This document shows, in pieces, positions 6,359 through 63,962 of a DNA stretch of 64,000 nt (position 1 is the stretch's first letter; each line of letters opens with the position of its first letter). The stretch is from the NCBI RefSeq assembly GCF_025231525.1, contig NZ_CP103057.1:682001-746000 (forward strand). Reading direction: 5' to 3'. Source of the stretch: Sphingomonas endolithica (GTDB taxonomy: Bacteria > Pseudomonadota > Alphaproteobacteria > Sphingomonadales > Sphingomonadaceae). The position numbers were made by a program, and so were the translations under genes. The notes under the pieces were generated by a model. That model worked only from the letters and a program-made list of their open reading frames with translations. It was not told the DNA's origin and did no database searches.

Positions 6359-7800
6359 TGGGAGGCTCTAGCGGCACTCAGCGCTTGGGCAAGGTCGTCG
6401 GCGATGAAGGCCGGGCCACAGCGGCGGGCGGCCTCGGCATGGAGCCAGACGCCGGCAGCGGCGGCTTCGAGCGGGCTCAGACCAGCGGCGAGCATCGCGG
6501 CGATCGTACCGGCGAGAACGTCGCCGGTGCCGGCGGTGGAGAGCCAGGGACTGGCGCCCGTTGCGACGCGAACGTCGCCATCTGGGCTGGCGATGACGGT
6601 GTCGGCGCCTTTGAAGACGATCGTCGCGCCTGACTGCATGGCAGCGGCGCGGGCGCGCTCGACCTTGCTGGCGGCGTCGGTGCCGAACAAGGCGTCGAAC
6701 TCGCCGGCATGGGGGGTGAGGATCGCGGGTGCATTGCGCGTGGCGAGTTGCGAGAGGCGCGCTCCTTTGAGCAGATGGAGCGCGTCGCCATCGATGACGA
6801 GCGGGCGATCGGTCGCGAGGGTTGCGTCGAGCTTGTCCTCAGCGTCTGCATTCCGTCCCAGGCCAGGGCCGATCAGCAGCGCGTCGATGCGCCGTTCGGC
6901 AATCGCCTCGGCCGAGAAGGGTTTGTGGACCAGCGCGTCGGGGCCGCCTTGGTCGTCGGCGAGCAGCAGGACGTAGCCGGCACCGGCACGCATCGCGGCG
7001 ATGCTGGCGAGCCGGGCGGCGCCGGGCATGGTGCCGGCGACGATCGCGACCATGCCGCGGGTGTATTTGTGGGCGTCCGGGCCTGGCGCCGAGAGGATGG
7101 GCTTTGCGAGGACGTGGGCGCGCGAGGTGATCGGGACGCCGATGTCGAGGATGCGGACCGTGCCGCAATGGCTTGCGGCGGGCTGGAGAAGGTGGCTGGG
7201 TTTCGCGGCGCCTAGTGCGAGCGTGACGTCATAGTTGGGGATGGGGCTGATGACGCGTCCGTCGTCGGTGGTGACGCCACTGGGTAGATCGATGGCGATC
7301 CTGAGATTTGCGGATTGCGCAAGTTCGAGCAGTTTTGGGGCGATCGGGGTCGCGCCTTCGATGGTGCGTTCCGACTGGGCCCCGGCCTTCGCCGGGGAGC
7401 TGGTCGTGGGGGCGTCCAAACCGCGTGTCAGGCCGGTGCCGAACAGGGCGTCGATCAGGATCGGGGCGGGTTGTGCCGTGGCGAAGGGTTCGACCGGGCC
7501 CGGCCACCTTGCTTTGGCCGCCCGGGCAGGGTCGGTCTTGGGATCGCCGAGTGCTGCGACCCGGACCTTCAGACCGGCCTTGTGCAGCAGCCTGGCGGCG
7601 ACATAGCCGTCGCCACCATTGTTGCCGGGTCCGCACAGGATCAGGATCGGGTTGGAGCCGGCAAGCCGCCGGACGGCGGCGGCGATATGCTGTCCGGCGC
7701 GGTCCATCAGGCTTTCCACCGTTGTGCCGGCGGCGATCACCGCATCCTCCGCCGCGCGCATTTCGGCCGCGGTCAGGATCGGGCCGGCAAGTGGCGTCAT
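6355..7800 (-). CDS. nnrDE: Bifunctional NAD(P)H-hydrate epimerase / ADP-dependent dehydratase
   Basis: Repairs NAD(P)H damaged by hydration: the N-terminal YjeF domain interconverts the epimers and the C-terminal carbohydrate-kinase-like domain removes water using ADP. Visible motifs are CGPGNNGGDGYVAA (about residue 56), DALFGTGLTRG and IDLPSGV in the epimerase half. The dehydratase half has NAPAILTPHAGEF and STAGTGDVLAGTIAAML. Length (481) fits the fused form. Residues near 133-141 (SSPAKAGAQ) and their surroundings make an unusual loop encoded by a dispersed palindromic repeat. Overlaps its two neighbours by 4 nt each way, so it is part of a compact operon. Confidence 0.95.
   Translation of the reverse strand: MTPLAGPILTAAEMRAAEDAVIAAGTTVESLMDRAGQHIAAAVRRLAGSNPILILCGPGNNGGDGYVAARLLHKAGLKVRVAALGDPKTDPARAAKARWPGPVEPFATAQPAPILIDALFGTGLTRGLDAPTTSSPAKAGAQSERTIEGATPIAPKLLELAQSANLRIAIDLPSGVTTDDGRVISPIPNYDVTLALGAAKPSHLLQPAASHCGTVRILDIGVPITSRAHVLAKPILSAPGPDAHKYTRGMVAIVAGTMPGAARLASIAAMRAGAGYVLLLADDQGGPDALVHKPFSAEAIAERRIDALLIGPGLGRNADAEDKLDATLATDRPLVIDGDALHLLKGARLSQLATRNAPAILTPHAGEFDALFGTDAASKVERARAAAMQSGATIVFKGADTVIASPDGDVRVATGASPWLSTAGTGDVLAGTIAAMLAAGLSPLEAAAAGVWLHAEAARRCGPAFIADDLAQALSAARASQ
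7375..7401. repeat. REP-like palindrome embedded in nnrDE
   Basis: The segment contains CCCCGGCCTTCGCCGGGG, the core of the palindromic repeat family also seen at 16077-16102, 16152-16178 and 42753-42778. It is in frame within nnrDE and encodes the SSPAKAGAQ loop. Confidence 0.85.
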
Positions 7801-53651: not shown

Positions 53652-55736
53652 ATGCGGATCACCACCGAGGCATCGCAATCTTACAGTTTCACCCGCCGCG
53701 CGATCATGCTCGGCGGGGCGCAGGGCGTGGTCGGCTTGCTGCTCGCCGGGCGCATGGCGTGGCTCGCGGTGGCGGAAAACGAACGCTATCGCCTGTTGTC
53801 GGAAAGCAACCGGGTCAACATGACGTTGATCCCACCGCGCCGCGGCTGGATAGTCGATCGGCATGGCGCGCCGATCGCCAACAACCGCACCGATTTCCGC
53901 GTCGATATTATTCCGGACCGGCTGGATGCCAAAGACAAGGACAGGGTCCTGGCGCTGCTGAAATCCATCCTGCGCCTGCCGCCAGAGGAAATGGTGCGGG
54001 TCGCGACCGACCTCAAACATGCCGCCGGCTTCCAGCCGGTTCAGGTGGCGGAAAATCTCGATTGGGAGCGGTTTGCGGCGGTCAGCGTACGCTTGCCAGA
54101 ATTGCCCGGCGTAGCGCCGACGCGCGGCTTCTCGCGCCATTATCCTGCGGCCTCCGCGGTGGCGCATCTGACCGGCTATGTCGGCGCCGCATCGGCCGCC
54201 CAGTATCAGAAGACCAAGGACCAGCTGATGGTCACCCCGGGCTTCAAGCTCGGCAAGGACGGGCTCGAAAAGACGCTGGAGAAGCAATTGCGCGGCGATC
54301 CCGGCGCCAAGCGGGTCGAGGTAACCGCGCGCGGCAAATTGGTGCGCGAGCTCGAAACCAAGCCCGATGCACCGGGCCAGACGATCCGATTGACGATCGA
54401 TGCGGGCCTGCAGGAATACACCGCACGGCGGCTGGGCACCAATAGCGGCTCGGCAGTGATGATCGACTGCGAGACCGGCGACATCCTCGCCATGGTATCG
54501 GTGCCTGCCTACGATCCGAACAGCTTTTCGGACGGGATCAGCCATCTCGAATGGAAGATGCTCTCCGACGACGATCACGTGCCGCTGATGAACAAGACGC
54601 TTCAGGGACTTTATCCGCCGGGCTCGACGGTCAAGCCGATGAACGCGCTGGCATTGCTGCATGCCGGCGTCGATCCGCACGCCAGGGTCAATTGCTCGGG
54701 TGCGATGCGGGTCGGCACCGGCGTGTTCCACTGCCACAAACGCGGCGGGCATGGGGCGCTCGATATGAAGAATGCCGTGATGCAGAGCTGCGACATCTAT
54801 TTCTACGAGATGATCCGCCGCGTCGGCTATGATGCCATCGCGCCGATCGCGCGCGAGGTCGGGCTGGGCCAGAAGTTCGACCTGCCGTTCGATTCGCAGC
54901 GTTACGGCACCGTGCCCGACAGCGCCTGGAAGCTGAAGAAGTACAAGAACGCCTGGACCGTGGCCGACGGTCTCAATGCCTCGATCGGCCAGGGCTATGT
55001 CTTGGCCAATCCGTTCCAGCTGGCCGTGATGACGGCGCGGATCGGATCGGGGCTGCTGTTGAAGCCTCGTTTGGTGATGAACGGGAAACCGCCGCCCGCC
55101 CAGCCCCTGTCGACCACGCCCGAACAACTCGCGATCGTGCGCGATGCGATGTTCGGCGTGATCAACCAGGGCGGCACGGGTGGCCGCGCCCGGTTGCTCG
55201 TGCCCGGAGTTGCCATGGCCGGCAAGACGGGTACCGCGCAGGTGCGCCGCATCACCATGGCGGAGCGTGCTGGCGGCGTGCTCAAGAACGGGCAGTTGCC
55301 GTTCAAGATGCGCGATCACGCGCTGCTGGTAGCGTTCGCTCCGGCGGACAAGCCGAAATACGCGCTGGCCGTGGTGCTCGAACATAACGGCCATACTGTC
55401 GCCAATCTCGATACGCCGCTCACCGGGCGCGATATCATGACCTATATGTTCGACCGAGACCGGGCGCTGAAGTCGCTGGCAGAGATCGAGCCGACCTGGG
55501 GCGGCGACATCGCCGCGCGCAGTGCCGCCCAGTCCGCCGCCTACCGCGCCGCGGCGAGCGCACCGCCGCCCGTCGTCGCGGCAGCGACCGAGACCAACGC
55601 CACCGCTCCCACTGCGGCTCCCGCGGTCGAGGCAGCGACCGACGCTGCCAATGCCAATGCCGAGGCTTTGGCGCACGATGCCGCGACCGGAAACGGCGTG
55701 GCCCAGATCACCGGATCGCCGGAGCGCGAACAATGA
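53652..55736 (+). CDS. mrdA: Penicillin-binding protein 2
   Basis: Class B transpeptidase that crosslinks peptidoglycan in elongation, partnered by RodA. 694 residues. N-terminal membrane helix, dimerisation region with RRGWIVDRHGAPIANNRTDFRVDI, then the transpeptidase domain with the active-site serine in YPPGSTVKPMNALALL, SxN in MQSCDIYFYEM region and KTGTAQ. A 70-residue alanine/proline-rich C-terminal tail is disordered. Its end overlaps rodA by 4 nt (ATGA). Confidence 0.96.
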   Translation: MRITTEASQSYSFTRRAIMLGGAQGVVGLLLAGRMAWLAVAENERYRLLSESNRVNMTLIPPRRGWIVDRHGAPIANNRTDFRVDIIPDRLDAKDKDRVLALLKSILRLPPEEMVRVATDLKHAAGFQPVQVAENLDWERFAAVSVRLPELPGVAPTRGFSRHYPAASAVAHLTGYVGAASAAQYQKTKDQLMVTPGFKLGKDGLEKTLEKQLRGDPGAKRVEVTARGKLVRELETKPDAPGQTIRLTIDAGLQEYTARRLGTNSGSAVMIDCETGDILAMVSVPAYDPNSFSDGISHLEWKMLSDDDHVPLMNKTLQGLYPPGSTVKPMNALALLHAGVDPHARVNCSGAMRVGTGVFHCHKRGGHGALDMKNAVMQSCDIYFYEMIRRVGYDAIAPIAREVGLGQKFDLPFDSQRYGTVPDSAWKLKKYKNAWTVADGLNASIGQGYVLANPFQLAVMTARIGSGLLLKPRLVMNGKPPPAQPLSTTPEQLAIVRDAMFGVINQGGTGGRARLLVPGVAMAGKTGTAQVRRITMAERAGGVLKNGQLPFKMRDHALLVAFAPADKPKYALAVVLEHNGHTVANLDTPLTGRDIMTYMFDRDRALKSLAEIEPTWGGDIAARSAAQSAAYRAAASAPPPVVAAATETNATAPTAAPAVEAATDAANANAEALAHDAATGNGVAQITGSPEREQ

Positions 55737-56845
55737 ACGGCCTCAGCTTCGTCCCAGCACCGCTGGCACAACTGCCCTGGCGCGTGATCCTGCTCGTCAC
55801 CGCGATCGGCTGCTTCGGCCTGGTCGTGCTCTACTCCGCCGCCGGCGGGTCGGTGCGGCCTTGGGCGCTCAGCCAGGGCATCCGCTTCTTCGTCCTGCTC
55901 TGCGGCGCCATCGCGCTGTCGCGGCTGCGCGAATCGATCTGGGGCACGATCGCGCTGCCGATCTATGGCGGGTTGGTCATCGCCCTCATCCTGGTCGAAC
56001 TGCTGGGGGCGGTCAGCGGCGGCAGCCAGCGCTGGCTGGATCTCGGGCTGATCCGGCTCCAGCCCTCCGAATTTATGAAGCCGTTCATCGTGCTCGCCTG
56101 CGCCAAATTCTACGACATGTTGCCGCCCAACGAGACCCGGCGCTTCGGGGCAATCTGGCCGGCTGCGCTGTTGATCGGTTTCCCCGCCGCCCTGGTGATG
56201 CTGCAGCCCGATCTCGGCACCGCGCTGATGATCTGCGCGGGCGGGGTAACGGTGGTGTTCCTGGCCGGCGTCCCGCTACGGCTGTTCATCGGTGGCGCGC
56301 TGGCCATGGGAGCGGCCATCCCGGTCGCGATCAATTTCGTGCTGCACGATTATCAGCGCAATCGCATTCTGATCTTCCTCGACCCCGAAAGCGACCCGCT
56401 CGGCACCGGCTATCATATCAGCCAGTCGAAGATCGCGATCGGATCGGGCGGCGTGTTCGGCAAGGGCTTCCTCAACGGCACGCAGAGCCATCTGGATTAC
56501 CTGCCCGAGGGCCATACCGACTTCGCGCTGGCGACGATGATGGAGGAATGGGGCCTTGTCGGTGGCGTGGCAGTGATCATCGCCTTCTTCTGCCTGATCT
56601 TCTGGGGCATCAACGTCGCGCTCAACGCACAGACCCGGTTCGGCAAACTGACCGCGGCGGGCCTGTCGGCCACGATCTTCTTCTACGTCGCCATCAACAT
56701 GTCGATGGTGATGGGTCTCGCCCCCGTCGTCGGCATCCCCCTGCCCTTCATCAGCTTCGGCAGCTCGGCGCAGCTGACCGTTTTGCTCTGCCTGGGCATC
56801 CTGATGTCGATCGATCGGCAGAACCGCCAGACGAGCGGCTGGTAA
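55733..56845 (+). CDS. rodA: Rod shape-determining protein RodA (SEDS glycosyltransferase)
   Basis: Peptidoglycan polymerase of the elongasome, 370 residues with about ten membrane helices. SEDS hallmarks: GSQRWLDLGLIRLQPSEFMK, LQPDLGTALMI, and near the C-terminus NMSMVMGLAPVVGIPLPFISFGSSA. The start overlaps the mrdA stop, so PBP2 and RodA are made together. Confidence 0.96.
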   Translation: MNGLSFVPAPLAQLPWRVILLVTAIGCFGLVVLYSAAGGSVRPWALSQGIRFFVLLCGAIALSRLRESIWGTIALPIYGGLVIALILVELLGAVSGGSQRWLDLGLIRLQPSEFMKPFIVLACAKFYDMLPPNETRRFGAIWPAALLIGFPAALVMLQPDLGTALMICAGGVTVVFLAGVPLRLFIGGALAMGAAIPVAINFVLHDYQRNRILIFLDPESDPLGTGYHISQSKIAIGSGGVFGKGFLNGTQSHLDYLPEGHTDFALATMMEEWGLVGGVAVIIAFFCLIFWGINVALNAQTRFGKLTAAGLSATIFFYVAINMSMVMGLAPVVGIPLPFISFGSSAQLTVLLCLGILMSIDRQNRQTSGW

Positions 56846-57027: not shown

Positions 57028-59451
57028 TCAGTCACGGCGTAATGCCCAGGCCGGCGCAGCGCGGCTGGCGCGGAGTGATTGTGCCAACACCGTCAGCACG
57101 GCGATGGCAGTTGCGACGATGCTCGCTGCGATGAAGTAAAGCGGCGACAGCGCGATCGGGTCGTCGAACCCCGCCAGCCACGTCCGCATCGCGACAAATG
57201 CCAGCGGCCAGGCAATGACGTTGGCGATCAGCACCGGGCGCAGGAACTGCCCGACCAGCAACGTCACGATGTCGCGCGCCGATGCGCCCAGCACTTTGCG
57301 GATGCCGATCTCCTTCACCCGCCGTGCGGTGTTGAATGAGGCCAGCCCCCACAGCCCGACACAGCCGATCATCACCGCCAACCCCGCGCCGATCGCGAAC
57401 AATCGTGTGGCGCGGTCGTCTGCGACATAGAATTCGGCGAGCCGCTGGTCCGCCGTGCCCCCGACGAACGGCACCTGCGGCACCATCCGCTGCCACACGC
57501 CGCGTACTGCCGCCAACATCGCCCGGGGATCGCCGGTGAACCGTATCGATGCCACCGCCGCGTCCAGCGCCTCCGGTCGGCGGCTATAGATGTAGTAGGT
57601 CGCGCTATGCGGTTGGCGCGGACTGAAGAACCGCATGTCGTCGACCACCCCGATGATCGTGCGCGGTCGGTCGCCGCCCACCGTCTTACCGATCGCATCG
57701 TCCGGCGAAGCGAAGCCGAGCGTCGGCACGGCACGACGATTGATGACGATCGCGGTCGGCATACCCTTGCCGCCCACGTCCCCATCGTCGGCGCGGTGCG
57801 CCTCGTCGAAGAAACGGCCGGCGACCAGGCGGCTGCCATAGACCTGGAAGAAACGCGGCCCCACGACGATCCAGCGCAATGACGGGCCTGGGCCGGCAAC
57901 GCCGGGCAGCGGCACGTTATCGCTACTGTCGTTGCCGCTACCGCCGGCCGCGCTGTTGCCCAGTGCAACCCCGGTCACCCCCGGCAAGGCGCGGATCGCG
58001 TCCGCCACCGCGCGCCGGCGCGCGGCGGGAAGGAGGCTGTCGGCGAACGAGCGCACCACCAGCAATCCATCGCGTTGGAACCCGAGATCGGCCTGCCGCA
58101 CGTGTCGCGTTTGCACGACGAGCACGCAGGTGCCGATGATGAAGGCGATGGCGAGCCCGAACTGGAACACCACCAGCGCCTCGCGCGTGCGGGTGCCGGC
58201 ACGCCCACCGCCCGGGGCGCGGGCCGAGGACAGCACTGCCGCTGCCGGAAAGCGCGACAGCAGCAATGCCGGATAGGAGCCGGCCGTCACCCCGACAATC
58301 ACGACCAGCACGATCAAGGCCAGTGCGACGATCGCATAGGGGATCGTCAGCGAGAGCCCGCCCGCCGCGTTGACCAGCGGCAGGCTCAGTTCCGCCAACA
58401 TCAAACCGAGGATCGCGGCGAGCGCGACGGTCAGCACCGCTTCACCCAGGAACTGGCGGATCAGCGCGCGGCGATCCGCCCCCAGCACCTTGCGCATCGC
58501 CACCTCGCGGGCGCGCAGCCCCGCCCGAGCGGTGGCGAGGTTCACGTAATTGACGATCGCGATCAGCAACGTCAGCACCCCGACCAGGCCCAGCGTCACA
58601 ACGGTCATCTTTTGGCTAGCGCTCTGTTTGCCCTGCGGCTCGAGGTGCATGTCGGCAATCGGCAGCAGTGCCAGCTGCTGGGTTTTCGACGCGTCCTTGC
58701 CCATATCCTTCAACCCGCGACGATCGACGAACGGGTCGAGCTTTTGCTCGAAGGCATGCGCCGCACTGGCCGTGGGGAAGCGGAGGAACGTCTGCAGCTG
58801 CGAACTGCCCCAATGATACCAATTCTCGCTTGGCGGCGTCCTGGGCAACGGGATCAGGATCGACAGCTTGAAATCGCTGTTCTTGGGCAGGTCGCGGAAC
58901 ACGCCAGCGACACGATAGACATTGGCACTATCCATGGCGACGGTCAGGTTCTGGCCGATCGGGTCGCTTGATCCGAAATACTTGCGGGCGGCGCTCTCGC
59001 TGATGATCGTGCTGGCGGGATCGCGCAGCGCACGCCGTGCGTCCCCGCGCGTCAGCGGCAGATCGATCACCTCGAAAAAGGATGGGTCGACTTGCGCCAC
59101 GTCGTCCCTAGTGGCGACGCCGCCGCGCACCACGCTACCTGCCCCCTCCCCACCGCGCACCCGGGTACCGACGGTGCCGGGGAAATCCTCGCGCATCTGG
59201 TCGAGCAGCCCGCCCATCGTGAACGGATAGGCGCCGTTGAACGGGCTCCCCGGCAGGTTCCACACCGTCTGCACGACGTAGATCTCGTCATGGCGCGGCA
59301 GCCACTTTTCGTAGCTGGTCTCGAAGCGCACGTAGAGCGACAGGACGAGGAACACGGCAATGCCCACGGCCAGCCCCCCGATGTTGAGCGCGGCGTAAAG
59401 CTTGTGGCGGGCAAGCGAGCGATACAGGGTGAGGAGCGCGAAGCGGTTCAT
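57028..59451 (-). CDS. MacB/FtsX-family ABC transporter permease
   Basis: Inner-membrane permease of a tripartite-like exporter; substrate unknown. 807 residues, with two MacB-type halves: an N-terminal helix and periplasmic domain (SLYVRFETSYEKWLPRHDEI; AARKYFGSSDPIGQNL), an FtsX core (about 280-395, RAREVAMRKVLGADRRALIRQFLGEA), a second periplasmic domain, and a second FtsX core (RRVKEIGIRKVLGASARDIVTLLVGQF). It ends convergent with tRNA-Lys. The ATPase and adaptor genes lie directly upstream on the same strand. Confidence 0.94.
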   Translation of the reverse strand: MNRFALLTLYRSLARHKLYAALNIGGLAVGIAVFLVLSLYVRFETSYEKWLPRHDEIYVVQTVWNLPGSPFNGAYPFTMGGLLDQMREDFPGTVGTRVRGGEGAGSVVRGGVATRDDVAQVDPSFFEVIDLPLTRGDARRALRDPASTIISESAARKYFGSSDPIGQNLTVAMDSANVYRVAGVFRDLPKNSDFKLSILIPLPRTPPSENWYHWGSSQLQTFLRFPTASAAHAFEQKLDPFVDRRGLKDMGKDASKTQQLALLPIADMHLEPQGKQSASQKMTVVTLGLVGVLTLLIAIVNYVNLATARAGLRAREVAMRKVLGADRRALIRQFLGEAVLTVALAAILGLMLAELSLPLVNAAGGLSLTIPYAIVALALIVLVVIVGVTAGSYPALLLSRFPAAAVLSSARAPGGGRAGTRTREALVVFQFGLAIAFIIGTCVLVVQTRHVRQADLGFQRDGLLVVRSFADSLLPAARRRAVADAIRALPGVTGVALGNSAAGGSGNDSSDNVPLPGVAGPGPSLRWIVVGPRFFQVYGSRLVAGRFFDEAHRADDGDVGGKGMPTAIVINRRAVPTLGFASPDDAIGKTVGGDRPRTIIGVVDDMRFFSPRQPHSATYYIYSRRPEALDAAVASIRFTGDPRAMLAAVRGVWQRMVPQVPFVGGTADQRLAEFYVADDRATRLFAIGAGLAVMIGCVGLWGLASFNTARRVKEIGIRKVLGASARDIVTLLVGQFLRPVLIANVIAWPLAFVAMRTWLAGFDDPIALSPLYFIAASIVATAIAVLTVLAQSLRASRAAPAWALRRD

Positions 59452-59498: not shown

Positions 59499-60179
59499 TC
59501 AGAGTGCGCGGGCGACCGAGGCGACGATGCGGCCGTCGAGCATGTCGATGCGGCGCCGCGCCATGTCGGCGTGCGAGGGCGAGTGCGTGACCATCACGAT
59601 CGTCGCTCCTTCCTGGTTGAGGCCGGTCAGGATGTTCATCACCTGCGCGCCGTTCTCGCTATCCAGATTGCCGGTCGGCTCGTCCGCCAGGATCAGCTTC
59701 GGGTCGCCGACGATCGCGCGGGCGATGGCGGCGCGCTGCTGCTGGCCGCCCGACAATTGGTGCGGATAGTGGCGGGCCCGATGGGCGATGCCGACCTTGT
59801 CCATCGCCGCGGTGACGCGCGTGCGCCGGTCGCCCGTCTTGTCCTTTCGATAGGCAAGGCCAAGTTCGACGTTCTCGGCGATGGTCAGCTCGTCGATCAG
59901 GTTGAAGCTCTGGAACACGAACCCCAGAGTCTCCCCCCTGAACCGCGCCAGCGCCGCTTCGTCGAGTGCGGCAAGGTCGCGCTCGCCGAACAGATATCTG
60001 CCGCCGCTCGGCCGATCGACCGTGCCCAGAGTGTTGAGCAGGGTCGATTTGCCGCACCCCGACGGGCCCATCACGGCAACGAACTCGCCCGCCTCGACAT
60101 GCAGGTCGATGTCGTGGAGCGCGGTCGTTTCGACCTCATCGGAGACGTAGCGGCGCTGGATATTCTCTAGGCGGATCAT
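59499..60179 (-). CDS. ABC transporter ATPase (MacB/LolD class)
   Basis: ATPase partner of the FtsX-type permease. 226 residues with Walker A GPSGCGKSTLL, signature LSGGQQQRAAIARAI and Walker [14 protein letters not shown]. It lies between the adaptor gene (10 bp upstream) and the permease gene, giving adaptor-ATPase-permease order. Confidence 0.95.
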   Translation of the reverse strand: MIRLENIQRRYVSDEVETTALHDIDLHVEAGEFVAVMGPSGCGKSTLLNTLGTVDRPSGGRYLFGERDLAALDEAALARFRGETLGFVFQSFNLIDELTIAENVELGLAYRKDKTGDRRTRVTAAMDKVGIAHRARHYPHQLSGGQQQRAAIARAIVGDPKLILADEPTGNLDSENGAQVMNILTGLNQEGATIVMVTHSPSHADMARRRIDMLDGRIVASVARAL

Positions 60180-60189
60180 GGCGGGCCTT

Positions 60190-61473
60190 TCAGCGAAGGT
60201 TGAGGATGGCGCCCTTCACGGACGCCGTATTGGAGGTGACGAGACGCTCGCCGGGCTGGAGGCCGGACAGGATCTCGACCTGCTCCGGGTTACGGCGGCC
60301 GACCGTCACGGCGCGCCGGCGTGCGTGACGCCCGTCGGCATCGATGACGAAAGCGCTGGTCCCGCCGCCCGCATCTAGCCACCCGCCGACCGGCGCGACC
60401 AAGGCGGGCGCGGTACTGCCGAGTGTGATGCGGGTGTCGAGCGTCTGACCGCGGTTCAGCCCTGCCGGCGGGCTGCCCTCGAACGTCAGTTCGATGCGGA
60501 AACGCCCGTCCTTCACCGCCGGCAGTACCTTGGACACGGTCAGCCGCGCACCATTGATCGACGCCTTTTGACCCAGCGCAACACGACCGAGATAATATTC
60601 GTCGACATCGGCCTCCAGCTTCCAAGATCCCTCGCTGTCGATCTGCCCCGCCGGGTCGCCGGGCTTTAGCGTCTGCCCCGGTTGCAGCACGAAGTTGGTC
60701 AGCCGCCCACCCGTGGGCGCCCGCACCACCAGTGCATCGAGCCCGGCACGCACCGCTGCCAGATTGCCCGACAGCCGCCCCCGCGTATCGGCAAGCCGCG
60801 CCTCCTGCAGCGCGGTGATTCGCGCCTCCGCGGCATTGCCCGATTGCAGCTGGGCGAGGCGCTTCTCCTGATAGGCGGCTTCCTCGACATAGCTGCGCAC
60901 GCCGGCATCGGAGACGATGCCCTTTGCGTGCAGTTGCTGCCGGATGCCGAGTTCGCGGCGCGCCTTGATCAAATCGTAATTCGCCTGCGCGATCTGGCTG
61001 GCACGGTCGAGCCGGTTGCGCTCGATACTGAGATCCTGCCCAGACACGTCGCCGAGCTGTCCCGCAATTTGTGCTTCGCGGGTGAGCACCTCCAGCCGGA
61101 GCTCAGGGTTGCCCAAGTGGGCGAGCGGCTGGCCAGCGGCGACCATCGCGCCATCCTGTACCGACAGCGTTTCGACCTGCCCGCCAGACAGCACGCCGAC
61201 CAGGGTTGTCAGCCGCGGTGCGACGGTCGCACGGACCGGCAGATAATCGGCAAACGGCGCGCGGACCACCGCCCCGGTATCGATATCAGCAACGGCAATA
61301 TCGGTCGATCCGCTCGCCGGCAGGACGCGCCAAACGACGACGACAGCCAGCACCAATGCGACCGCGACCAGCATCGTGCGATGCCGCCACCATGGCAGCG
61401 CCTTCTTCGCCACGCGTCGATCCATGCCCGCGCCGGGAGAAGCTGTTGCGTGTACGGGTCGATCGGTCATCAT
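60190..61473 (-). CDS. Periplasmic adaptor (HlyD/MFP family) of the ABC exporter
   Basis: Membrane-fusion protein that bridges the permease to an outer-membrane channel. 427 residues: basic N-terminus, membrane helix about residues 34-52 (TMLVAVALVLAVVVVWRV), lipoyl halves around VETLSVQDGAMVAAGQPLAHLGNPEL and VRAPTGGRLTNFVLQPGQTLKPGDPAG, a coiled-coil hairpin between them, and a beta-barrel toward the C-terminus. An alternative start (MDRRVAKK, 61425) is equally reasonable. Divergent from the response regulator gene, with a palindrome between. Confidence 0.93.
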   Translation of the reverse strand: MMTDRPVHATASPGAGMDRRVAKKALPWWRHRTMLVAVALVLAVVVVWRVLPASGSTDIAVADIDTGAVVRAPFADYLPVRATVAPRLTTLVGVLSGGQVETLSVQDGAMVAAGQPLAHLGNPELRLEVLTREAQIAGQLGDVSGQDLSIERNRLDRASQIAQANYDLIKARRELGIRQQLHAKGIVSDAGVRSYVEEAAYQEKRLAQLQSGNAAEARITALQEARLADTRGRLSGNLAAVRAGLDALVVRAPTGGRLTNFVLQPGQTLKPGDPAGQIDSEGSWKLEADVDEYYLGRVALGQKASINGARLTVSKVLPAVKDGRFRIELTFEGSPPAGLNRGQTLDTRITLGSTAPALVAPVGGWLDAGGGTSAFVIDADGRHARRRAVTVGRRNPEQVEILSGLQPGERLVTSNTASVKGAILNLR

Positions 61474-61552
61474 GGTGCAGTGTCACCCAGGATCGCCGAA
61501 ATGCCCAAAGCACTAGATTTCAATGACTAAGCGCGACGTAACCGCACCGCCA

Positions 61553-61589
61553 CTGTCCGTGTCCGGACACACTGTCCGGACACGGACAG
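61553..61589. promoter_or_regulatory. Perfect 37-bp palindrome between exporter and regulator genes
   Basis: 17-bp arms (CTGTCCGTGTCCGGACA and its exact complement) flank a 3-bp CAC centre. Inside are two TGTCCGGACA decamers, 13 bp apart, each with a further TGTCCG or CGGACA half-site outside. This is the layout of a multi-dimer operator, and it lies 80 bp from the adaptor start and 8 bp from the preferred regulator start. Most likely bound by the adjacent Fis-type response regulator. Confidence 0.8.
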
Positions 61590-61597
61590 CTGGCAAC

Positions 61598-62818
61598 GTG
61601 TCAAGCGCGGCGATTCTGCTGATCGACGACAATCCCGATGTCGCGCGGGCGATCGCGCTGGCGTTCGACTGCGTCGGCCACGCCGTCGATGTGGCGCATG
61701 CGCCGGAGGAAGCCTTCTCGATGCTGGCACAGCGGCACTATGAGGCGATCCTGCTCGATCTCAACTTCACCCAAGGGCAGACCAGTGGCGCCGAGGGCTT
61801 TGCCTGCCTGGCGCGTATCGTCGCTGAGGATCCACAGGCTACGGTTGTCGTCATCACCGCGCATAGCGGCATCCGCATTGCCGTTGCGGCGATGCAGGCG
61901 GGCGCGCTCGATTTCGTGATCAAGCCGTGGCGGAATGCCGATCTGATCGCGCGGGTAGAGGCCGCGATTGCCAAACGCGCGCGGCACCCGCTTGTCGGCG
62001 CCAGCATGCCGGCCCCGCCGCATCGCCTGCTCGGCGACAGTGCGCCAATAGTCGCCGCGCGCGACCTGATCCGCCGGATCGCGCCGACATCTGCAAGCGT
62101 CCTGGTTTCTGGCCTAGCCGGCACGGGGCGCAGTCTCGCCGCCGCCCTGATCCATGAGGGCTCGGCTTATGCCGATGATCGCCCGAGCACGATCGACGTC
62201 CGCGACGAAGCAGCCTGGCCCCGGGTCGATGCTGCGGTCGGCACGCTGATCCTCCGCCATGTCGATCAGATCGACGCCGTGCGTCAAGCGCGGCTGATCG
62301 ATCGACTTCCGGACGAGGTGCGCACGATCACCATCGTGGACTTGCCCGAGCGCCTGTCGCCGAGACTGCGCGCCCGGCTCGGCACGATCATCCTGCCGCT
62401 GCCGCCACTCGCGGCGCGCGGGGCGGACGCGGTGCTGCTCGCGCGTCATTTCGCCCGTGTCGCGGCCGAACGCCACGGCAAGCCGGTTCCGCCACTCACC
62501 GCTTCCGCCGAAGCCCTGATCCTCGCGCACAATCTGCCTGACGAGGTCCGGGGACTGGCCCAGGCGGTCGAACGTGCGGTGCTGCTGGACGATGATGGCG
62601 TGATCGATGCCGGCGCACTAGTCCCCAAGCTGGTTCAGGCGATCGCCGCCGCAGCGCCCAGTCCGGTGACGCCGCTCGAATTATCGCTTTCCGGCTCCGA
62701 ACGGGTGATGATCGAGGCGGCACTGCGCCAGCATCACCACAATGTCAGCCACGCCGCCGCGTCGCTCGGGCTTAGCCGGCAGGCGCTCTATCGGCGGATG
62801 ACACGCCATGGCCTCTGA
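61598..62818 (+). CDS. NtrC-like response regulator with degenerate AAA+ domain
   Basis: Receiver domain with an acidic pair (LLIDDNPD) and phospho-aspartate in AILLDLNF, a central AAA+-like domain and a C-terminal Fis-type helix-turn-helix (LRQHHHNVSHAAASLGLSRQALYRRM). The AAA+ part is damaged: Walker A is GLAGTGRS (R for K), the GAFTGA loop that contacts sigma-54 is absent, and the Walker B acidic pair is replaced (LILRHVDQ). Start at GTG 61598 puts the receiver at the N-terminus. An upstream in-frame ATG (61523) would translate the palindrome. Coupled to the kinase gene by an 11-nt overlap. Confidence 0.88.
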   Translation: MSSAAILLIDDNPDVARAIALAFDCVGHAVDVAHAPEEAFSMLAQRHYEAILLDLNFTQGQTSGAEGFACLARIVAEDPQATVVVITAHSGIRIAVAAMQAGALDFVIKPWRNADLIARVEAAIAKRARHPLVGASMPAPPHRLLGDSAPIVAARDLIRRIAPTSASVLVSGLAGTGRSLAAALIHEGSAYADDRPSTIDVRDEAAWPRVDAAVGTLILRHVDQIDAVRQARLIDRLPDEVRTITIVDLPERLSPRLRARLGTIILPLPPLAARGADAVLLARHFARVAAERHGKPVPPLTASAEALILAHNLPDEVRGLAQAVERAVLLDDDGVIDAGALVPKLVQAIAAAAPSPVTPLELSLSGSERVMIEAALRQHHHNVSHAAASLGLSRQALYRRMTRHGL

Positions 62819-63962
62819 GCGCACCCCCAATCTCCACGGCTTCGGCGCGATCGCTGTCGGGGCCGGGCTGGTTGCGATCGGGGCGATCTTGGTGTGGGCG
62901 CTGCGCCATGGCTTCTATGGCACGATGCTGGTGGCCGTGTTGGTCGCGGTCTGGTTGACCGCCATGCTGTGGTGGACTGCCGTTCACCCGCGCGACGTGC
63001 CGATCGTCTCCGTCAGCACGGATGACAGCGAAGACGAGCGCATCATGCTGCGCGCATTGCTGGATCAGACCCCCGGCGCGCTGCTCGCGATCGATGGCGC
63101 GCGCGTTCGTACGCTCAACCGTGCCGCGCGGTCGCTATTTGCCACCGACGATCTGGTGCTGCCCGCCCCACCTTCCCTGCTCTCCCATGATGCGGTGCGA
63201 CTGCGCCTTGGGGGACGTGGCTGGCGGATCGATCGCGTCGCTGTTCAGGGGCTCGGCGCGCCGCGTACGTTGGTGGCGTTGGTCGACGTCGAGACCGAGG
63301 AACATGCCGCCGAAGCACGCGCCACGCGCGACCTGCTGCGCGTGCTCGGCCATGAGGTGATGAACGCGATGGCGCCGATCACCTCGCTCGCCGAAAGCGC
63401 ACTCGCGGTCATGGCCGTACCTGAACGGCGCGATCGGTTGCTGCCGGAAATCCTCGCCACACTCGCCCGCCGTGCCGATGGCCTGCGCCGCTTTACCGAA
63501 GCCTACCGAGAGGTAGCGCGCCTGCCCGACCCCCTGCTCGCCCCTGTCACGCTCGCCGACCTGTTCGCCGATCTCGCCCGATTGTTCGACGCGCAATGGG
63601 GGAACCAAGCGACGCTGGTCATAGCCGATCCGGCCGGAGCGATCGCCTCGCTCGATCGCGGCCAGATCGTGCAGGCACTACTGGCTTTGCTACGCAACGG
63701 CGTCGAGGCGAGCGGTGCGCAGGGAACCGTGCATTTATCGGCCACAGCATCGGCCGACCGCATCGTCTTCCACGTCACCGATCCCGGCCCCGGCGTCGAT
63801 CCCACCCACCGCGCCTCGATCTTTACACCGTTCTTTACCACCAAACCCAAAGGCACCGGCATCGGCCTCGCTGCTGCTCGGCAGATCGCACAATCCCACG
63901 GCGGCGACGTGACCCTGCGCGCCGTTTCGCCAACGACGTTCGACTTGGCGGTGCCGCAATAG
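62808..63962 (+). CDS. Sensor histidine kinase
   Basis: Cognate kinase of the upstream regulator. 384 residues with two N-terminal membrane helices (about 13-31 and 38-57) and almost no periplasmic loop, then a short PAS-like cytoplasmic region (ALLDQTPGALLAIDGARVRTLNRAARSLF). The phospho-acceptor is H182 in RVLGHEVMNAMAPI. The catalytic domain has the N-box ALLRNGVEAS, G1 DPGPGVDP and TKPKGTGIGLAAARQIAQSHGG. The small sensor region suggests it detects a membrane or envelope signal directly, perhaps the exporter's activity. The gene ends just before the window edge. Confidence 0.94.
   Translation: MASERTPNLHGFGAIAVGAGLVAIGAILVWALRHGFYGTMLVAVLVAVWLTAMLWWTAVHPRDVPIVSVSTDDSEDERIMLRALLDQTPGALLAIDGARVRTLNRAARSLFATDDLVLPAPPSLLSHDAVRLRLGGRGWRIDRVAVQGLGAPRTLVALVDVETEEHAAEARATRDLLRVLGHEVMNAMAPITSLAESALAVMAVPERRDRLLPEILATLARRADGLRRFTEAYREVARLPDPLLAPVTLADLFADLARLFDAQWGNQATLVIADPAGAIASLDRGQIVQALLALLRNGVEASGAQGTVHLSATASADRIVFHVTDPGPGVDPTHRASIFTPFFTTKPKGTGIGLAAARQIAQSHGGDVTLRAVSPTTFDLAVPQ

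Follow-up and report, generated by a model that had tools for sequence, protein, structure and literature searches.

We analyzed a stretch of 64,000 nucleotides from the genome of Sphingomonas endolithica (contig NZ_CP103057.1, positions 682,001 to 746,000), hereafter the window, in which the genes of an ATP-binding cassette (ABC) exporter diverge from those of a two-component system. A palindrome at this divergence is very probably, as indicated by comparison with orthologous loci, the operator of the adjoining response regulator. We consider it reasonably likely that the palindrome acts as a pair of dyads bound by this regulator, which would thereby activate the exporter by way of sigma-70 and limit its own transcription. 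The elements concerned are the following:

61553..61589, no strand: perfect palindrome of 37 bp, putative operator, with arms of 17 nt and a center of 3 nt (inverted-repeat search, shuffles, orthologue comparison)
61554..61569, no strand: site 1, exporter-proximal dyad TGTCCG-N4-CGGACA of 16 bp (orthologue comparison)
61573..61588, no strand: site 2, dyad TGTCCG-N4-CGGACA of 16 bp, beginning 19 bp from site 1 (orthologue comparison)
61523..62818, plus strand: response regulator consisting of a receiver, a degenerate AAA+ domain without GAFTGA loop and a Fis-type helix-turn-helix (open reading frames, Pfam, relatives)

The gene order proposed in a first-pass annotation of this DNA, with adaptor, ATPase and FtsX permease on the minus strand and response regulator and kinase on the plus strand, was recovered by open reading frames (ORFs) and Pfam matches. 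The palindrome had been placed between the two operons; it does not lie cleanly there, as the regulator ORF starting from the ATG at 61523 runs across it. The exact 17-bp arms reported earlier were confirmed. Both arms (61553-61569 and 61573-61589) are 100% complementary and spaced by 3 nt, and no longer exact inverted repeat with a gap of up to 8 occurs in the window. Shuffling the entire sequence 40 times with dinucleotides preserved produced longest arms of 9-13 only, and the palindrome is far above chance expectation. Across the 4.09-Mb genome, the decamer TGTCCGGACA is present twice, each time within the palindrome locus. Likewise, TGTCCG-N4-CGGACA with 0 mismatches occurs at two places only, both in the palindrome; the genome search for the exact dyad gave no other copy that would point to a regulon outside this locus. 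When up to 2 mismatches were allowed, 226 places per strand were obtained as compared to 228 for a reversed-pattern control, and therefore no inference on a wider regulon is drawn at this level.

Orthologous loci were collected by searches with the regulator, the window genome being counted in each. At E 1e-30, 57 of 100 relatives gave a match; within the genus, 102 of 295 genomes did so at E 1e-60, and within the order 12 of 296 at E 1e-45. Each place forms a row of the window type (T), a sister type (S) or a distant type (C), and some genomes give two or three rows. The 74 T rows comprise 40 loci from the searches and 34 fetched later, which completes the genus-search places above 360 bits; a partial match (G520, 280 bits, 59% identity) and the pattern-found L036-L038 are left out of this count. 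The 20 S rows consist of L105 from the order search and 19 of the 46 genus-search places below 310 bits (G520 excluded), the other 27 being unscored. The C type is represented by 13 rows, with 28 more places of similar score in the relatives search left out. In a tree of 66 rows, the root of which is arbitrary, T, S and C each fall on one side of a branch. Exporter context was called from fetched regions of 12-13 kb: regulator, kinase match and at least one exporter gene occurred in 20/20, and adaptor, ATPase and permease together in 18 of these. Six further fetched stretches were left out of this scoring.

Comparison of these loci revealed the register, pairing and conservation of the putative sites. 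At least one strong dyad is present in all 74 T rows, and 58 of them, including the window, carry two dyads at an exact offset of 19 bp (49 distinct 35-mers). Such a pair was observed in 37 of the first 40 T rows versus none in 10 shuffles of each. All 20 S rows have a single strong dyad, and none has a pair. The consensus over the 58 pairs is YGTYCR-N4-YGRACR with the dyads 3 bp apart; 11 half-site positions are invariant and the remaining ones are mostly two-letter. The N4 segments vary, being mixed in site 1 and mostly ...AA in site 2, and site 1 begins with C in 57 of the 58 pairs and with T in the window alone. Over the 35-bp element, the mirror match is 16/17 in the window and 8-14/17 in the other 57 paired rows. 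Half-sites that are kept, an N4 that varies and a symmetry specific to the window argue that the binding unit is the 16-bp dyad, and that decamers and near-perfect palindrome are peculiar to the window genome.

The first-pass annotation had read the palindrome in a register of TGTCCGGACA decamers. We rejected this register: a check of 94 rows of the T and S types, reaching from -150 to +20 relative to the match start, detected the decamer in the window and in none of the 93 others. Other parts of the proposal fared better. The operator is found at the same position in orthologous loci, where it separates or overlaps the divergent genes of exporter and regulator, and two dimer-sized sites are seen that fit a Fis-type (HTH_8) domain, with inverted half-sites of about 16 bp and conserved positions in 58 paired sites. 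Absence of the palindrome from orthologous loci had been named as a point that would speak against an operator: the perfect palindrome is indeed absent there, but the operator dyads are present. A pattern search of the family (199 genomes) detected the pair, at 2-3 mismatches, in five, namely the window genome and four from three other genera; the reversed-pattern control gave zero matches. All four pairs outside the window sit between adaptor and regulator.

The comparison further showed that the spacing between the pair and the exporter is nearly fixed. The distance was taken between site 1 and the end of the TCATCAT-type block that marks the exporter start. It came to 81 bp in 34 of 37 paired rows and to 80 bp in two, and a second measurement gave 81 bp for the remaining row (L061). 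In 21 further paired rows it is 81 bp in 18, 80 bp in one and 82 bp in one, with one unmeasured, giving a span of 80-82 bp in 57/57 measured rows. In the window, both sites lie upstream of the exporter ATG, site 1 being centered at a distance of 88.5 bp and site 2 at 107.5 bp; by a hand count made for L016 only, the single site of this S row lies at 107.5 bp, matching site 2 of the window. On the minus strand between the two starts, T rows have a conserved TTTAGG block and, 19 bp further, GACACTG. The corresponding candidate elements of the window, assigned from conservation and inference, are:

61504..61509, minus strand: TTTAGG-type block (TTTGGG in the window), candidate exporter -35
61479..61484, minus strand: GACACT block, candidate -10 whose end lies 5 nt ahead of the exporter ATG, alternatively belonging to a GGTGA ribosome-binding site

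In S rows, TACACT occurs shortly before the ATG in 8/14 and TANACT in 10/14. We take the TTTAGG and GACACT blocks to be a weak exporter promoter, perhaps leaderless; alternatively, the GG.GA of the T rows could be a ribosome-binding site. The dyads are situated about 44 bp upstream of the candidate -35, and this spacing, too, is nearly fixed.

The recognition helix LGxxRxxLYRRM is common to 66/66 rows, and the regulator retains the acidic residues and the phospho-acceptor of the receiver. In contrast, a GAFTGA-type loop was found in 13/13 C rows, 0/39 T rows (window included) and 0/14 S rows, the truncated L015 being excluded from this count. The Walker A motif of the window protein reads GLAGTGRS, with R for K, and its Walker B region LILRHV, which is not what is expected of an active ATPase of an enhancer-binding protein (EBP). 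R for K in Walker A and an ILRH-type Walker B are the commonest T forms, and FLDE is lost in the T forms displayed; the S forms displayed keep the Walker A lysine. The Pfam sigma-54 domain covers residues 145-195 only in the window protein (26.8 bits) and nearly the whole profile in the C-type L025 (207 bits). In a fold search with the regulator, NtrX of Brucella and NtrC1 ranked at the top and VpsR at 12, 13 and 19, with full-length TM-scores of 0.4-0.5. With a receiver, a remnant of an NtrC-like AAA+ domain, HTH_8 and a deleted loop, the regulator is, judged by its sequence, a former sigma-54 EBP.

Potential sigma-54 promoters were scored against a -24/-12 consensus. Toward the exporter, the best score was 26-29 of 29 in 13/13 C rows and at most 25 in 54/54 T and S rows. 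Toward the regulator, 9/13 C rows reached at least 25, and T and S rows did not exceed 26. The best score of the window toward the exporter, 25 of 29 at -462, falls inside the range of 20-27 obtained for coding controls. By this measure, T and S loci carry no sigma-54 promoter above background. An adaptor is nearby in 13/13 C rows (L025-L035, L111, and L024, which is the same as L088), and a kinase match in 12/13, none being found in the short stretch of L035. At least one strong dyad is present in 13/13 C rows, often paired 20-21 bp apart. In L027, a C-type regulator stands beside an adaptor that is 63% identical to that of the window over 311 residues, so the pairing of exporter and regulator types can change. 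Three dyads, TGTTCG-N4-CGAACA and variants, are located upstream of the regulator in L024, L031 and L035, which stem from other families of the order. When a second sigma-54-type module was sought in the window genome, the matches to the C-type regulator L025, own regulator aside, were 36-42% identical; a scan of genome contigs yielded three distant loci only, 20-25% identical. Absence of rpoN as the cause of loop loss was rejected, as rpoN was found in the window genome (396 bits, over the cut-off).

The operator appears, unusually, to lie inside the regulator's own coding sequence. The first-pass annotation mentioned neither this nor the missing sigma-54 loop, nor the sigma-54-type versions with similar sites among more distant relatives. 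The ATG at 61523 is the likelier start of the regulator, with the GTG at 61598 being possible. Starting from this ATG, the operator would occupy codons 11-22, and the start codons of the divergent operons would be just 49 bp apart. In 58/58 paired rows, an in-frame ATG, GTG or TTG occurs within 60 bp upstream of the operator, most commonly an ATG 39 bp before it, with a GTG a few bases away where the ATG is lost. On the way from the operator to the receiver domain, 44 of the 58 rows contain none of these three codons, so the operator appears to be part of the reading frame. Its phase relative to the receiver is 0 in 55/58 paired rows, although the distance to the receiver varies. Another phase is seen in three rows, those of the window and of L041 and L042, its closest relatives, which have the ATG 31 instead of 39 bp upstream. 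Thus, the same DNA would be read in two frames, suggesting that the DNA and not the peptide is kept. Residues 1-5 and 7-22 of the regulator have a predicted local distance difference test value (pLDDT) below 50 in AlphaFold. In S rows, the start codon is located downstream of the operator in 8/8 rows inspected, in 6 of these at -12, so the T type seems to have shifted its start upstream past the site.

Taken together, we propose the following sequence of events. The palindrome would represent two 16-bp sites for the response regulator encoded alongside, a protein probably sharing ancestry with the sigma-54 EBPs that adjoin the same kind of exporter. It would have kept its receiver and DNA-binding helix, and the operator motif with them, and lost the sigma-54-contact loop and the ATPase residues. 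Upon phosphorylation by the adjacent kinase, two dimers may bind side by side, with centers roughly 89 and 108 bp ahead of the start codon of the exporter, and increase exporter transcription by sigma-70 RNA polymerase; a dedicated activator is what we infer as most likely. Binding within the 5' coding sequence of its own gene may in turn limit, or tune, transcription of the regulator.

Several observations weigh against this proposal. A second full dyad is missing in 16 of the 74 T rows, which have one strong dyad. For the last 40 rows, assignment to T or S follows score and not the tree; in the 66-row tree itself, support for S is modest (93/71), and the program cautions that long branches meet. 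As coding controls reach 27, a sigma-54 score of 26-27 alone is weak, and with rpoN present, sigma-54 is not missing from the genome. A consensus scan found no sigma-70 consensus promoter at the locus, as could be expected for an activator-dependent promoter, so the argument on polarity rests on the position of the sites. With regard to the intragenic position, third-position GC content (GC3) between the upstream start and site 1 is 0.49 as compared to 0.85 in the receiver and is not coding-like; this weakens the claim, though gene starts are often atypical. A possible start codon also follows the operator in 10/37 and 4/21 paired rows, among them the GTG at 61598 of the window.

The last two points would equally suit a leader element: translation would start at GTG 61598, which is in frame, or in the relatives at an uncommon start codon, and the palindrome would be promoter-proximal and not intragenic. 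L041 retains a GTG after the operator, and the downstream starts of the S rows, six at -12, agree with this. We nevertheless regard it as rather improbable, given the lack of such codons in 44 paired rows, the upstream in-frame starts in 58/58 and a phase that is the same in 55/58 despite the varying distance; moreover, the near relative L042 has no start codon after the operator. As an alternative to activation, dimers on the pair might block both divergent promoters until a signal from the kinase relieves repression. TyrR is an example of a degenerate EBP able to repress. The 49 bp between the divergent starts, an operator downstream of any promoter for a transcript starting at ATG 61523, as in a roadblock, and the loss of ATPase residues, which removes the classical activating function, are consistent with a repressor. 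However, the near-fixed position of the sites relative to the candidate -35 fits activation better, and C-type relatives combine the dyads with sigma-54-like promoters, which need an activator. A repressor is therefore a serious candidate, yet in our view an unlikely one.

The remaining explanations dispense with a protein site. An inverted repeat acting as RNA, either as attenuator hairpin or as terminator, is very improbable: the regulator mRNA would be expected to fold into a strong hairpin through the perfect 17-bp arms, but the mirror symmetry is not conserved in the other 57 rows, and neither an Rfam match in 61300-61800 nor a terminator-like site in 61400-61650 was found. We therefore discarded an RNA hairpin or terminator as unsupported. 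That the palindrome arose by chance or is a remnant of a mobile element might be suspected from its near-perfect form here only; with a strong dyad in place throughout the T rows and the pair recurring outside the genus, in four genomes from three genera, this is scarcely credible.

The regulator can be compared to known systems, although none of the papers listed in searches of the open-licence literature described this operator. Several EBPs have lost sigma-54, namely HupR of Rhodobacter capsulatus, TyrR, DhaR and VpsR (PMC3162934). In contrast to these, the whole loop region is gone here and the ATPase motifs have decayed, exporter and kinase adjoin the regulator, and the genus still includes loop-bearing relatives in which sigma-54-like promoters and a nearby adaptor accompany these dyads. 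The work of Bowman and Kranz (1998) reportedly showed that NtrC of R. capsulatus, from tandem sites located some 100 bp ahead of a sigma-70 promoter, acts on the housekeeping polymerase and requires ATP binding to do so. The present system resembles it in combining an NtrC-family regulator with tandem sites about 100 bp upstream; it differs in that the Walker A lysine is replaced by arginine in the window and the commonest T forms. In Bce-type modules of Firmicutes, an FtsX-type transporter is joined to an intramembrane-sensing kinase and an OmpR-type regulator. Here, too, an FtsX-type exporter lies beside a kinase, with a putative N-terminal helical hairpin and apparently without periplasmic sensor; unlike in Bce modules, the exporter is of the Gram-negative type with an adaptor and the regulator is NtrC-type, not OmpR-type.

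A bolder and doubtful extension is that the whole module switched from sigma-54 to sigma-70 within one genus: helix and enhancer motif would have been kept, AAA+ motor and -24/-12 promoter lost, and the operator swallowed by the regulator frame, with conservation of DNA and not peptide. The kinase hairpin might then sense exporter activity, as a Gram-negative counterpart of Bce-type flux sensing. Because regulators with and without the loop, and loci with and without sigma-54-like promoters, share operator motif and kind of neighborhood in one genus, it may be directly testable in which order the features were lost and what an NtrC-type regulator minimally requires to work without sigma-54. 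The dyads also offer a clean address toward the signal and substrate of the exporter.

The exporter and kinase genes of the window are:

60190..61473, minus strand: HlyD-type periplasmic adaptor (RND_mfp over cut-off; best NCBIfam match DarC, below cut-off)
59499..60179, minus strand: ABC ATPase of the MacB/LolD/DarD type (Pfam/NCBIfam)
57028..59451, minus strand: MacB/FtsX permease, ADOP-like (ADOP model below its cut-off)
62808..63962, plus strand: histidine kinase with N-terminal hydropathy peaks at 14-32 and 41-59 (Pfam, hydropathy)

By crude hydropathy, the two peaks of the kinase leave no space for a periplasmic sensor domain. The same analysis of the kinases of 24 relatives gave two or more peaks in many, and one or none in others. 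With adaptor, ATPase and FtsX/MacB_PCD permease, the exporter resembles MacAB/ADOP exporters and DarBCD of darobactin, and the DarC, DarD and DarB models match; unlike in these systems, all three Dar matches (DarC 161.6 of 450, DarD 243.6 of 375 and DarB 80.5 of 700 bits) and the ADOP match remain below the cut-offs. FtsX-like permeases regulated by sigma-54 polymerase are mentioned for other taxa in PMC12316311.

Two ORFs lie just beyond the permease, at 53652-56845 of the window, and presumably encode a penicillin-binding-protein-like and a RodA/FtsW-like protein; the RodA-like ORF had no match in the loci of 24 relatives searched. In L079 (3511-7350), the regulator is directly divergent from the permease, with adaptor and ATPase not detectable alongside, and its operator region (L141) has one strong dyad, the full pair being absent. 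L077 has an adaptor, a partial ATPase and a partial kinase match, the permease match being absent. Tandem permease matches occur in L073, L076, L082, L083 and L085-L088, and the window has one permease. In L074, a DUF2807 (head GIN domain) protein is encoded between ATPase and permease (6777-7514; PF10988, 126 bits), and a gap of similar size separates the two genes in L073, L075, L076 and L080, and not in the window.

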